A DNA stretch of 64,000 bases from Rhizobium sp. Root274 (GTDB lineage: Bacteria; Pseudomonadota; Alphaproteobacteria; Rhizobiales; Rhizobiaceae). The translations under genes and the position numbers were made by a program. The number at the start of each line of letters is the position of its first letter. Positions within the stretch are counted from its first letter, which is position 1. The stretch spans positions 125,186-189,185 of the forward strand of contig NZ_LMJE01000001.1 of the NCBI RefSeq assembly GCF_001429245.1, given 5' to 3'. The notes under the pieces were generated by a model, which saw only the letters and a list, made by a program, of their open reading frames with translations, was not told where the DNA came from and searched no databases. Positions 14,947 to 20,668 of the stretch are shown here, one piece after another.

Positions 14947-17028
14947 TTACTCTGCCGCTGCCTTGAAATTGTTGCGGGCCAATGCGGAGCATTCGGCCAT
15001 GACGGCCGAAGCACGCGCGATCGGGTTCGTCAAATAGAAGTCTTTGACCGGCGACGCAAACACAGACTTGCCCAACTTGCCCGGTTTTTTCGCCAGTGCA
15101 GCAATATCTGCAACCGCACCCGGTGCAACCTCATCGATTTCGCCGAAATGCGGGAAGGCTTCGTAGAGCTTCACGCGCAGCTGGGCGAGCGAATCAAAGG
15201 GCAGCTTCTTGCCGAGCACGTCCGAAAGTGCGCGCAGAATCGCCCAGTCTTCGCGGGCCTCGCCCGGCGCGAAGCCGGCACGGTTGCCCATCTGGACGCG
15301 GCCTTCGGTGTTGACCCAGGTGCCCGACTTCTCGGTATAGGTCGCGCCCGGCAGGATCACGTCGGCATAATGCGCGCCGTTGTCGCCATGGCTGCCGATA
15401 TAGACGACGCACTTGGCGGTCTTGGCGGAGAAGTCGAGTTCGTCGGCGCCGAGCAGGAAGACGACGTCGAGCGACGACAGCATCTGGCCGGCAGCAACAG
15501 CCCCCTGCCCCGGCACAAAGCCGAGATCGAGTGCGCCAACGCGCGATGCAGCCGTGTGAAGAACGGAGAAGCCGTTCCACTCGTCGGTCAGCGCGCCAAC
15601 ATCCTGAGCAAGCTTGGCAGCATTGGCGAGGACGGCCGCACCGTCAGCGCCGGAAAGCGCACCCTGGCCGATGATGATCAGCGGGTTCTTGGCAGCCTTC
15701 AGCGTTTCGGCGAAGCTGTTCTTGCCGGAGACGAGATCCGAGAGCGTCTCGGTTCCTGCGCCCAGGTAGTCATAGGGATAACGAAGATCGCCGCCTTCGC
15801 CAATCAGGGCGATCGGCAGGCCACCACGGCGCCAGCGCTTGCGAATGCGGGCATTGAGAACGGCCGCCTCGTAACGCGGGTTGGCGCCGACGATCAGGAT
15901 CGCATCGGCAGCTTCGATGCCTTCGATGCTGGTATTGAAGAGATAGGTCGAGCGGCCGAGCGACGGATCAAGTGCCGTCCCATCCTGGCGACAGTCGGTA
16001 TTCGAAGAGCCGAGCGCGTTGACGAGCGTCTTCAGCGCGAAGATTTCCTCGACGGAAGCGAGATCGCCGGCGACGGCACCGATCTTGTCGCCAGAGGTAG
16101 AGGCAACGGCTGACTTGATCGCGGCAAAGGCTTCCGCCCAGCTCGCGGGCTGCAGACGTCCGTCCTTCTTCACATAGGGGCGGTCGAGACGCTGGGTCTT
16201 CAGGCCATCCCAGATGAAGCGGGTCTTGTCGGAGATCCACTCTTCGTTGATCTGTTCATTGACGCGCGGCATGATGCGCATGACTTCGCGGCCACGCGTG
16301 TCGACACGGATGGCGGAACCGAGCGCGTCCATGACGTCGATCGATTCGGTCTTCCCCAGTTCCCACGGACGAGCGGTGAAGGCAAAGGGCTTGGAGGTCA
16401 GCGCACCGACCGGGCAGAGGTCGACAACATTGCCCTGCAGCTCAGAGGTCATCGCCTGCTCGAGATAGGTCGTGATCTCGGCGTCTTCCCCACGGCCGAT
16501 CAGGCCGAGCTCGGCAATGCCTGCGACTTCGGTGGTGAAGCGGACGCAGCGCGTGCAGTGAATGCAGCGGTTCATCACGGTCTTGACCAGCGGTCCGATA
16601 TACTTGTCTTCGACGGCGCGCTTGTTCTCGGTGTAGCGCGAACTGTCGATCCCGAAGGCCATGGCCTGGTCCTGAAGGTCGCATTCGCCGCCCTGGTCGC
16701 AGATCGGGCAATCCAGCGGATGGTTGATCAGCAGGAATTCCATCACGCCTTCGCGGGCCTTCTTGACCATCGGCGTGTTGGTGAAGACTTCCGGAAGTTC
16801 ACCGTTCGGGCCGCCGCGCACGTCGCGCACGCCCATGGCGCAGGAGGCTGCCGGCTTTGGCGGGCCACCCTTCACTTCGACCAGGCACATCCGGCAATTG
16901 CCGGCAACCGACAGTCGTTCATGGAAACAAAAGCGCGGGACTTCGGCGCCGGCTTCCTCGCACGCCTGCAACAGCGTGAAATGATCCGGAACCTCGATCT
17001 CTTTACCGTCGACCTTCAGCTTTGCCAT
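14947..17028 (-). CDS. nuoG: NADH-quinone oxidoreductase subunit G
   Basis: Iron-sulfur subunit of the NADH-oxidising arm of complex I (693 residues). The N terminus is ferredoxin-like with a [2Fe-2S] set ([15 protein letters not shown], then CAMG), followed by the His/Cys set for cluster N5 ([14 protein letters not shown]) and a [4Fe-4S] set (CIHCTRC ... CPVGAL). The rest is a molybdopterin-oxidoreductase fold without cofactor. Length matches the alphaproteobacterial/mitochondrial form, not the longer E. coli one. Confidence 0.96.
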
Positions 17029-17165: not shown

Positions 17166-17942
17166 TCACTTGCCGGTGCGGACCTTGCCACCGAGCAGAC
17201 GTTTCGCCTGACCGGTCCAATCATCCCGCAGCGTCCGTCCGTCCAGCCCGAGCTCACTGTCGAGTGCGGCGAGCGCTTCCGGTTCCAGCTCTGCGATCTG
17301 CTGAAAGCCGGAGATCCCCCTGCCCTTCAGCATCTGTTCCAACTTCGGCCCGATGCCGTCGATCCGCTTCAGGTCGTCGGCCTTGCCAGCCTTGCGGGCC
17401 GGCGCTGCCTTGACCGTCTTCTCCGGCGTCTCTGCCTTGGCAACCTTGACCGCCTTTGTTGCGATCTTTTCTGCCGGGCGTTCCTCCGTCTTTGTCTTCG
17501 CAGCAGCCTTCGCCACCGGCTTTGACACTTCGGGCTTGGCCTTTGCTTCCGCCTTCGCACCGAGCTTCGGCTGCGCCTTCACCGGGTTAGCCTTTGCCAC
17601 CCTCGGCTTCGCCGCCGCCGGAGCGGCCTTCATTGGTTCGGTCACCACATCCGGTGTTAGGACCGGCTCTGGCTGCGGGGCCGGCTCTTTCACGGCACTC
17701 GCTTCCTTCGCCTTGCGCTCGTCTTCCAGCTGCCGCGCCAAATCTCCGGTCAGTTGCATGGCCCCCTGCAGGGAGCCGAGAAAAAACCGGCTCATCTGGG
17801 CTGCCATGCCGAAGCCGAAGGCCGTGGCAGCGGCCAGAGCGGCCGCAGGGTTCATCAAAGGATCGCTCGCGTCGGACACAGGAGGCACGTCAGCCGGATC
17901 GCCCGGCCGGCCCTTCCCGTCATTGTCCGAACCGCTCGCCAT
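17166..17942 (-). CDS. Helix-hairpin-helix protein inserted in the nuo operon
   Basis: A 258-residue protein between nuoG and nuoF, not a core complex I subunit. It has an N-terminal hydrophilic stretch, a hydrophobic Ala-rich segment (about residues 30-50), a low-complexity Lys/Ala/Pro linker (about 75-185) and a C-terminal helix-hairpin-helix module (about 189-255, GIGPKLEQMLKGRGI then RDDWTGQAKRLLGG). This module is 32/64 identical, without gaps, to the tail of NuoE in the same operon. Function unknown; a role in assembly or stability of the NADH-dehydrogenase arm is a guess from the context. Confidence 0.85.
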   Translation of the reverse strand: MASGSDNDGKGRPGDPADVPPVSDASDPLMNPAAALAAATAFGFGMAAQMSRFFLGSLQGAMQLTGDLARQLEDERKAKEASAVKEPAPQPEPVLTPDVVTEPMKAAPAAAKPRVAKANPVKAQPKLGAKAEAKAKPEVSKPVAKAAAKTKTEERPAEKIATKAVKVAKAETPEKTVKAAPARKAGKADDLKRIDGIGPKLEQMLKGRGISGFQQIAELEPEALAALDSELGLDGRTLRDDWTGQAKRLLGGKVRTGK

Positions 17943-17954
17943 TCCTATCGGTCC

Positions 17955-19259
17955 TTATTCCGCCGCTTCCATGACCACGCCGTGGGCGATTGCATTGCGG
18001 GTGTACTGGTCGATACGCGCTTCGATTTCCGGACGGAAGTTGCGGATCAGGCCCTGGATCGGCCAGGCAGCTGCGTCACCCAGAGCACAGATCGTATGGC
18101 CTTCCACCTGCTTCGAAACCTGCAGCAGCATGTCGATCTCGCGCTTCTGGGCATTGCCCTTCACCATGCGTTCGACCACGCGCATCATCCAGCCGGTGCC
18201 TTCGCGGCACGGCGTGCACTGGCCGCAGCTCTCATGCTTGAAGAAGGCCGCGATGCGCCAGATCGCCTTGATGATGTCGGTCGACTTGTCCATGACGATC
18301 ATGCCGCCGGTGCCGAAGGACGACTTCACTTCTCGCATGCCGTCGAAGTCCATGATCGCATCGGCCATGTCTTCGCCCTTGACGACCGGGCAGGATGCGC
18401 CGCCCGGGATGACCGCGAGGAGGTTATCCCAGCCGCCACGAATACCGCCGCAATGGGTTTCGATGATTTCGCGGAAGGTCAGGCCCATAGTTTCTTCAAA
18501 TGTGCAGGGCTTGTTGACGTGGCCGGAGACCATGAACAGCTTTGTGCCGACATTGTTCGGACGGCCAAACGACGAGAACCAGGCACCGCCGCGACGCAGG
18601 ATGGTCGGGGCAACGGCGATCGATTCGACGTTGTTGACCGTGGTAGGGCAGCCGTAGAGGCCCATGTTCGCCGGGAACGGGGGCTTCAGGCGCGGCTGGC
18701 CCTTCTTGCCCTCGAGGCTTTCGAGCAGTGCCGTCTCTTCGCCGCAGATGTAAGCGCCGGCGCCGTGATGGACGTAGACGTCGAAATCCCAGCCGCACTT
18801 GTTGTTGGTGCCGAGAAGGCCAGCGTCATAGCATTCGTCGATCGCGCGCTGCAGTTCTTCGCGCTCGCGCATATATTCGCCGCGCACATAGATATAGGCC
18901 GTGTTGGCGCCCATGGCGAAACCGGCGATGACGCAGCCTTCGATCAGCGTGTGCGGATCGTGGCGCATGATCTCGCGGTCCTTGCAGGTGCCGGGTTCCG
19001 ACTCGTCGGCATTGACGACGAGGTAGTGCGGGCGACCGTCCGATTCCTTCGGCATGAAGGACCACTTGAGACCGGTCGGGAAGCCGGCACCACCACGACC
19101 ACGAAGGCCGGACGCCTTCATCTCGTTGATGATCCAGTCCCGGCCCTTTTCGATGATCTGCTTGGTACCGTCCCAATGACCGCGCGACATCGCCCCCTTC
19201 AGGGACTTGTCCTTGAGGCCATAGATATTGGTAAAGATGCGATCCTGATCCTTCAACAT
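17955..19259 (-). CDS. nuoF: NADH-quinone oxidoreductase subunit F
   Basis: NADH- and FMN-binding subunit of complex I (434 residues). It shows the glycine-rich nucleotide motif [12 protein letters not shown] (about residues 65-76), the FMN region around [13 protein letters not shown], and the cluster N3 ligands [14 protein letters not shown] plus a later Cys in [14 protein letters not shown]. Length and motifs are complete. Spaced 12 bases from the helix-hairpin-helix gene and 11 from nuoE. Confidence 0.97.
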
Positions 19260-19270
19260 ATCCTAACCCC

Positions 19271-20404
19271 TTAACGCGGCTTCTTGCCGAAGACCTTGAT
19301 GTATTCCGCTTCGCCGCCCTTGGCGAGCGCCTTGGCCTGCTTGACCCAGTCGTCCCGCTCGATGCGGCCGGAGAACTTGAGGTAGCTATCGACCCATTCG
19401 CGCTCCGCCTTCTTCCACTTGGCGATCTGCTCGAAGGTGTAGATGCCGAGGCCGTTCAGCGTGGCTTCGATCTTCGGACCGACGCCCGAGATCATTTTCA
19501 GGTCGTCGGGCGTTGCCGGACGTTCAATACCCGCCGGACGGTTCTTCTCATCCAGGGTTACGGCGGAAGATGCGACCGGGGCGGCAGCCGTTTCCTTTAC
19601 AGGGCGCGCCGTATCGGCAGCATCGCCCTTCACCTTGAGGTTTTCAGCAGCACCCTTCTTGTCGGTCGCAGGCGTCTTCAGCTTCGGATCCGTGACCGGC
19701 GTATCGGTGACCGGACGACCTGCATTGGCCGGCGGCACCGAGGCCTCTGCGGCGGCAGCCGGAGCCGGCGCATCTGCAAAGCGGATCGGCTCGATGGCGT
19801 CGGTGAGCGTGACAGGACCACCGACCGGGGCGGAGAAAATACGATCAACCTGCGGACCCGGCTTGATGTCGGAGCCCTTGCCTGCGGCGAAACGATCGAT
19901 GATGTGCTCGAGCTGGGTCGGCGTCAGATCTTCATAGGCGTCCTTGAAAATCATGACCATCGGTGCGTTGACGCAGGCGCCCTGACACTCGACCTCTTCC
20001 CAGGACAACGTACCGTCGGCATTCTGATGCAGCGGTTCCGGATGGATCTTCGACTTGCAGACATGGATCAGATCTTCCGCGCCGCGCAGCATGCAGGGCG
20101 TGGTACCGCAGACCTGGATATGGGCGCGGGTGCCGATCGGCTTCAGCTGGAACTGGGTGTAGAAGGTCGCGACCTCAAGGACGCGGATGAAGGGCATGTC
20201 GAGCATTTCGCCGACATACTCGATCGCTGCCTTGGTGACCCAGCCCTCCTGCTCCTGCGCGCGCATCAACAGCGGAATGACCGCCGATTGCTGACGGCCC
20301 GCCGGATACTTGCGGATGGTGGCCTCAGCCCAGGCGATGTTTTCCGCATTGAAGGAAAACGCTGCGGGCTGGAATTGCTCTTCGGCTAGTCGACGAACGG
20401 ACAT
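19271..20404 (-). CDS. nuoE: NADH-quinone oxidoreductase subunit E with helix-hairpin-helix tail
   Basis: Carries the [2Fe-2S] cluster N1a of complex I; ligands are CGTTPC and CQGAC in the first 150 residues (thioredoxin-like domain). At 377 residues it is about twice the length of the E. coli protein: after residue 210 comes a Pro/Ala/Thr-rich linker, then a helix-hairpin-helix module (about 300-365, [15 protein letters not shown] and [14 protein letters not shown]). The same module ends the separate protein at 17166-17942. Such tails are common in rhizobial NuoE; their role is unknown. Confidence 0.95.
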
Positions 20405-20422: not shown

Positions 20423-20668
20423 TCAGTTTATGGAACCACACCGCGTATTCGTCACATTGGCGAATTCGCAGGCATAGGCCGACTTGTCTTTCTGCAGAAA
20501 CACGAAGAGTTTCGATCCCGTCCAGGACGAACTCTTGATTTCGTAGCCCTGCTCGATCAGCTTGGCCATCGACACGGTCGCCTTCGTCGAAACGGCGTCA
20601 TTGTCCTGCGCCCCCACGGAAGTGGCGGCGGTGAGACAGAGCACGGTTGCGGCGAAAGCTCTCAACAT
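20423..20668 (-). CDS. Small secreted protein between nuoD and nuoE
   Basis: An 81-residue protein with a clear signal peptide ([20 protein letters not shown], cleavage expected before Gln21). The mature part is about 60 residues with the segment IKSSSWTGSKLFVFLQKDKSAYACEF (first 20 residues diagnostic), and two Cys near the C terminus that could form a disulfide. The start ATG shares one base with the nuoD stop (TGATG), giving tight translational coupling. It is not a known complex I subunit; I do not recognise a characterised family. Confidence 0.78.
   Translation of the reverse strand: MLRAFAATVLCLTAATSVGAQDNDAVSTKATVSMAKLIEQGYEIKSSSWTGSKLFVFLQKDKSAYACEFANVTNTRCGSIN

Follow-up and report, generated by a model that had tools for sequence, protein, structure and literature searches.

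A recurring helix-hairpin-helix module at the ends of NuoE and of a separate nuo operon protein in Rhizobium sp. Root274

The complex I (nuo) operon of Rhizobium sp. Root274 encodes a helix-hairpin-helix (HhH) module twice, once at the C terminus of NuoE and once at the C terminus of a separate protein. The original prediction was that the two may form a pair that binds RNA, DNA or each other and helps assemble the NADH-oxidizing arm. The locus therefore raises the question of whether the module is a special part of complex I or a domain with wider use, and this was addressed starting from the window, i.e., the whole 64,000-nucleotide stretch of DNA analyzed here. Pieces of the answer already carry database names (NuoE with its tail, L21, S2 and PhaH); a literature search covering open-license papers found none that unites these hosts.

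Two copies of one module in the nuo operon

The features considered here, all on the minus strand, are:
14947..17028, minus: nuoG, downstream of the separate gene (Pfam)
17166..17942, minus: separate module-bearing protein, 258 aa, between nuoF and nuoG; same position in relatives
17169..17387, minus: C-terminal module of the separate protein, residues 186-258
17388..17696, minus: Ala/Lys/Pro linker of the separate protein, residues 83-185, net charge +12
17697..17858, minus: N-terminal Gly/Ala-rich hydrophobic helix of the separate protein, residues 29-82
17955..19259, minus: nuoF, between both module genes (Pfam)
19271..20404, minus: nuoE, 377 aa, 2Fe-2S core, linker and C-terminal module (PF01257 at residues 27-172; NF009040 over residues 2-377)
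19274..19513, minus: NuoE C-terminal module and end peptide, residues 298-377, aligned core 300-363
19514..19879, minus: NuoE linker, residues 176-297, low complexity, net charge 0 from residue 181

The coordinates first given for the two module genes (17166-17942 and 19271-20404, minus strand) are correct. In BLASTP, NuoE residues 300-363 aligned without gaps to residues 189-252 of the separate protein with 32 identities in 64 positions (E = 2e-16), exactly reproducing an earlier count by hand; a 65-residue segment likewise gave 32. Chance similarity was ruled out, since 20,000 shuffles of one module segment reached at most 14 identities (mean 4.9). The tethered look of the modules, each on a low-complexity linker, was also borne out. 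The modules had further been placed outside the minimal 14-subunit complex, which holds for the NuoE tail, an extra, but not for NuoE itself, which is one of the 14 core subunits of complex I. When the whole genome was searched with a four-module profile (E up to 10), the two module sites of the nuo operon were the only strong places (at 1.9e-39 and 1.5e-34), and two further stray places had E values of only 0.4 and 2.2. The ribosomal protein L21 of this genome has no module tail (open frame of 105 aa).

The N-terminal helix of the separate protein is conserved among relatives around NLMAHPxA..GxGxASQ..G, and a single-sequence model, of low confidence (mean pLDDT 57), placed a helix at residues 32-82. 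Comparison of this model with a viral library yielded nothing useful. No consistent match emerged when the N-terminal regions of 17 relatives were searched against family models and the PDB. Between nuoD and nuoE, the window also encodes a small 81-residue protein whose start resembles a signal peptide (20426-20668, minus strand), and a hypothetical protein occupies the same nuoD-nuoE position in Sinorhizobium meliloti CP090106. PADLOC detected nothing.

Family assignments and predicted fold

NuoE matched the NCBIfam model NF009040 (PRK12373; NADH-quinone oxidoreductase subunit E, 400 positions) over its entire length, tail included, with 579.5 bits against a cut-off of 514; the model names the whole subunit and is silent on the role of the tail. 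Among Pfam models, HHH_5 (PF14520) matched the separate protein's module best (E 2e-5 to 4e-4), and its gathering score of 27 bits was missed both by the whole protein (21.3 bits) and by the module alone (25.2 bits). In NCBIfam, both window proteins also matched the end regions of ribosomal proteins L21 (PRK12278) and S2 (PRK12311) with E values of 1e-12 to 1e-20; these tails are the same module, with the ribosome as host instead. The matches to the module in the PDB were 8yy9 chain O and 9wqv chain a, and 9wqv was absent among the 60 listed of 62 NuoF-like sequences.

An AlphaFold2 model of the module, built from 37 aligned sequences of the window and of named relatives, had a mean pLDDT of 77, with values mostly of 84-88 in residues 11-70 of 79. 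The model contains the HhH feature of helix, GxG hairpin and helix: short helices flank a GxGP hairpin (GIGP), followed by a second hairpin, GR..R, and a last helix, W..QA. Both hairpins are among the best-conserved parts across 144 modules (separate-protein numbering: G196 100%, G198 99%; second hairpin: G235 92%, R236 95%, R239 90%, W242 99%), and the second is often lost in L21 tails (R236 50%, R239 46%). Foldseek found no match for the model in the PDB at E <= 0.001. With VIA-align, Z was at most 7.8, a value that can mean a common arrangement only, and the weak matches were to the DNA polymerase theta helicase, Hel308, RadA, the NusA C-terminal repeat and Y-family polymerases. Because they cover nucleic-acid-related domains as well as the NusA repeat, the fold leaves the choice between DNA or RNA and a protein partner undecided.

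Distribution across nuo operons

The module was searched for in 61 Rhizobiaceae genomes, one per genus, and 57 of them carry it among the matches listed. NuoE was found in 58. Both the tail and the separate gene are present in 27 of these, the tail only in 20, the gene only in 6 and neither in 5, so the two occur independently (Fisher p = 1). Counts were made by genome, as the nuo operon of one genome (G043) is split over two contigs, with both copies present, and another (G055) is represented by two nearly identical contigs; second nuo clusters of weak similarity, one each in G045 and G029, were excluded from the operon counts. The first start codon in frame was used, so the protein lengths of relatives are upper bounds. 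Two of the 11 genomes whose NuoE has no tail are small (2.0 and 1.1 Mb; G005 and G006).

Among the separate ORFs in the surveyed nuo loci, 32 of 34 lie between nuoF and nuoG, as does the separate gene in the Rhizobium and Peteryoungia loci of the named relatives and in S. meliloti. In S. meliloti, NuoE has about 276 aa, and the module is found on the separate gene only. One of the other two sits at a contig end after nuoF. The last, in G010, is between nuoE and nuoF and encodes a Cys-flanked two-helix hairpin resembling protein-O (see below). A module gene between nuoE and nuoF was also seen at six loci (L131, L133, L134, L135, L136 and L141), from an alphaproteobacterial metagenome-assembled genome (MAG), Gemmobacter, two Paracoccus, Salipiger and Roseobacter. 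Module genes thus recur within nuo operons, in varied slots and with varied N-terminal anchors. A tblastn search of plasmid records gave four matches only, all from Sinorhizobium. CP090106.1, a 3.7-Mb record titled S. meliloti plasmid pSymB, bears the nuo operon and, judging by its length, looks like the chromosome, perhaps mislabeled.

The solved structure of complex I from Paracoccus denitrificans has a NuoE of 239 aa, whose match to Root274 NuoE stops at Root274 residue 211, indicating that this NuoE has no tail. The structure contains neither the NuoE tail nor the separate protein, and the available part of the paper describing it names only NDUFS4, NDUFS6, NDUFA12 and PIMT as extra subunits. 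Together with the 11 of 58 genomes with tailless NuoE, this enzyme shows that complex I as such does not require the tail.

Other hosts of the module

Hosts outside the main nuo loci were read at 60 sites among the matches listed, where 61 module ORFs were sorted by keyword; at least six listed sites were left out of this count (in G033, G049, G031 and G059, and two in G055). Among the matches listed, the 61 ORFs comprise 15 L21, 10 LivG, six S2, four Dpp/Opp double ATPases, two PntA, one cytochrome c1 and 23 others, two of the last being the split nuo operon of G043. For L21, S2, LivG, Dpp, PntA and cytochrome c1, Pfam verified the host in a single example apiece. Among the others, it identified an additional Dpp fusion, three ABC ATPases whose module is N-terminal, an AcrB-type pump and an alpha/beta hydrolase bearing two modules. 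Many of the rest, as read from their sequences, start with one membrane-like helix, and some have two modules; the proteins at L199, L200, L205, L232 and L267 combine a membrane helix with two or three modules in tandem. Proteins bearing the module tail face the cytoplasm.

In a class-wide draw, the module was present in 13 of 142 genomes (E <= 1e-6), and in a phylum-wide draw in 42 of 200; 39 of the 42 belong to that class and the remaining three to a single other family. By sequence, the domain is common to many unrelated alphaproteobacterial proteins and moves between host genes. Two further ORFs came from elsewhere. One, from a Chitinophagales MAG outside the Proteobacteria (L137, 3946-6189), ends in the module and is presumably a glucan branching enzyme; the other (L128, 5521-6282) is a phasin-like protein with a module on a contig labeled Oceanobacillus, where the label or the assembly may be wrong.

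Kinship and constraint of the tails

Among the matches listed, the closest counterparts of the window's NuoE tail are other NuoE tails (85%) and Dpp tails from other genera (up to 82%), and its identity to the module of its operon neighbor is only 47%. For the separate module, the highest identity to others of its kind is 60%, and that to the NuoE tail 47%. A local duplicate pair private to the window was rejected, as the two modules are not nearest kin by identity or in the tree. In Gemmobacter tilapiae (L133), the nuoE and protein-O modules do look like a local copy (SH-aLRT 93).

The module tree was built from 71 columns and 162 rows; nine of its 159 inner branches were starred, and most forks are weak. 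With that limit on the forks, four Dpp tails fell at four places within the NuoE-tail cluster. In one genome (G039), the tails of cytochrome c1 and NuoE are sisters (SH-aLRT 96), with 85% identity by profile columns and 83% raw; the same cytochrome c1 tail is at most 68% identical to the other 46 NuoE tails. The module of this cytochrome c1 (L166, 1957-3288) follows the C-terminal membrane helix and a Lys-rich linker. The Dpp tails inside the NuoE cluster and the sister tails of G039 point to copying of tails from host gene to host gene.

Compared with eight relatives, the NuoE module had a dN of 0.005-0.080, against 0.005-0.159 for the catalytic core, and was equal to the core in one comparison and lower in seven. 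Its dN/dS was 0.03-0.18, below the core in seven of the eight. On these estimates, the NuoE tail is evidently under strong purifying selection. The module of the separate protein changed faster (dN 0.054-0.321, dN/dS 0.18-0.28 with eight relatives), and its linker faster still.

Relation to protein-O and PhaH

Entry 8yy9 is the RC-LH1 complex of Dinoroseobacter shibae, and its chain O was named protein-O (PMC12079452). It matched the NuoE module with an E value of 8e-21 and the separate protein with 4.8e-15. According to that report (PMC12079452), the protein-O gene lies between nuoE and nuoF, only a membrane hairpin is visible in the map, the module end faces the cytoplasm, and the end domain resembles the ends of NuoE and other proteins, its function being termed obscure by the authors. 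Protein-O is like the separate protein in having a C-terminal module, a long flexible link and a gene within the nuo operon. It differs in its two-helix membrane hairpin with a disulfide and in being bound to a photosynthetic complex (PMC12079452), and in its slot between nuoE and nuoF, the Root274 gene being between nuoF and nuoG. The separate protein contains no cysteine and lacks the two Cys-flanked transmembrane helices seen in protein-O; its single stretch of moderate hydrophobicity has a best 19-residue mean of 1.31.

Genes like that of protein-O, encoding a two-helix hairpin and a module, lie between nuoE and nuoF at L133-L136 and L141. Their presence in Paracoccus, Gemmobacter, Salipiger and Roseobacter nuo loci indicates that protein-O is not tied to the photosynthesis gene cluster. 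To our knowledge, Paracoccus species are not phototrophs, and relatives in Paracoccus nuo operons raise the question of whether protein-O serves photosynthesis only.

The second comparison is with PhaH, a phasin of Caulobacter crescentus, for which a review (PMC13052382) cites Salinas et al. 2023 (10.1111/mmi.15124). According to the review, the HhH end of PhaH binds DNA without sequence preference and its N-terminal end binds granules; PhaH ties storage granules to the nucleoid, and granules are disorganized without it (PMC13052382). The PhaH model NF045508 matched the separate protein (E 7.6e-21) and NuoE (E 1.2e-17), both below its cut-off. Like PhaH, the separate protein joins an N-terminal anchor through a linker to a C-terminal HhH end, but its N-terminal region is unlike that of PhaH.

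Discussion

The module has the look of a general-purpose docking handle, not of a part peculiar to complex I. The reading we tentatively favor, at a little under an even chance, is that of a flexibly linked, mobile docking domain of the two-hairpin HhH type that probably attaches machines to nucleic acid. Such a tail would keep large cytoplasm-facing machines loosely bound to a common scaffold in the cytoplasm, with nucleic acid the likeliest candidate. Complex I would be linked to the scaffold through the NuoE tail, and the separate protein would be anchored to a membrane or granule by its N-terminal helix, with its module reaching the scaffold. The tail would then position complexes and take no part in NADH oxidation or electron transfer. 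Against a nucleic-acid tether stand the five of 58 Rhizobiaceae genomes without either copy and the 11 without the NuoE tail. The modules are also about neutral (median net charge +1 in NuoE, -1 in the separate protein), and the linkers range from -33 to +18 across NuoE and are acidic in S2 (median -14), which is a poor fit to a universal DNA tether. The weakness of the structure matches and the frequent loss of the second hairpin on L21 count against it as well.

A protein target is nearly as likely as nucleic acid. The module could be a protein-protein docking domain that recognizes itself, further copies or a single shared protein partner and thereby gathers the proteins that carry it, a reading we regard as quite possible. 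The near-neutral modules and widely varying linker charge agree with it, as do the proteins with two or three modules in tandem and the likeness of the fold to SAM domains (Z 4-5) and to the NusA C-terminal repeat (Z 6.7, 25-26% identity). The latter repeat binds the C-terminal domain of the RNA polymerase alpha subunit. We know of no protein partner of the module, and the HhH end of PhaH argues the other way, since it is reported to bind DNA (PMC13052382).

A role for the separate protein as a PhaH-like phasin, linking PHB granules to the nucleoid and present in the nuo operon only as a passenger, is improbable. The layout of N-terminal helix, linker and HhH end is the same, and the PhaH model matches over residues 59-249; however, the score is 75.3 of the 250 bits required (74.9 in the genome search), and the N-terminal helix matches no phasin family, with one Phasin_2 match at E 0.73 and none to PhaH among 17 members. 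In Rhodobacterales, the same slot region of the operon is occupied instead by a two-helix membrane protein.

The part of the original prediction that survives is the shared module, with nucleic-acid binding as one option by analogy with the PhaH tail (PMC13052382), and the two modules may still bind each other; the dedicated pair that assembles or stabilizes the NADH-oxidizing arm is not supported, and we consider it distinctly improbable. Its attraction lies in gene order. Both genes are in the same operon, and the separate ORF starts 12 bases past the nuoF stop codon, with a purine-rich stretch ahead (read by eye); the gene is kept between nuoF and nuoG in the named Rhizobium relatives and S. 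meliloti, and the space between nuoE and nuoF holds a module gene in loci of Paracoccus, Gemmobacter, Salipiger and Roseobacter. Against this, the tail and the separate gene occur independently across rhizobial nuo operons, and the two modules evolve at very different rates, whereas the members of an obligate pair should keep closer pace with each other. The NuoE tail is closer to Dpp tails than to its supposed partner, which on the NuoE side is the outcome named beforehand as refuting the pair, and the P. denitrificans enzyme has a tailless NuoE, with neither module among the extra subunits named in the accessible part of its description. Modules that serve complex I only are likewise contradicted by the related tails on L21, S2, LivG, Dpp ATPases, PntA, cytochrome c1 and other proteins. 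Neutral passengers spread by recombination of repeat-like linkers would account for patchy presence and host switching but are highly improbable given the dN/dS of the NuoE module over eight comparisons and the strong conservation over 144 modules.

Returning to the docking domain, the pieces together suggest one tail reused on respiratory, transport, translation and storage machines. In its broadest form, which we consider unlikely to hold in full, one mobile domain would wire complexes I and III, transhydrogenase, nutrient transporters, ribosomes, storage granules and photosynthetic cores of Alphaproteobacteria to a common scaffold, probably the nucleoid; lineages would swap tails between respiratory complexes, with the sister tails of G039 as an example, and the nuo operon would encode a tailed enzyme together with a freestanding anchored tether. 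If the module is a tether, it would offer a direct way to test the placement of respiratory complexes relative to DNA or ribosomes.
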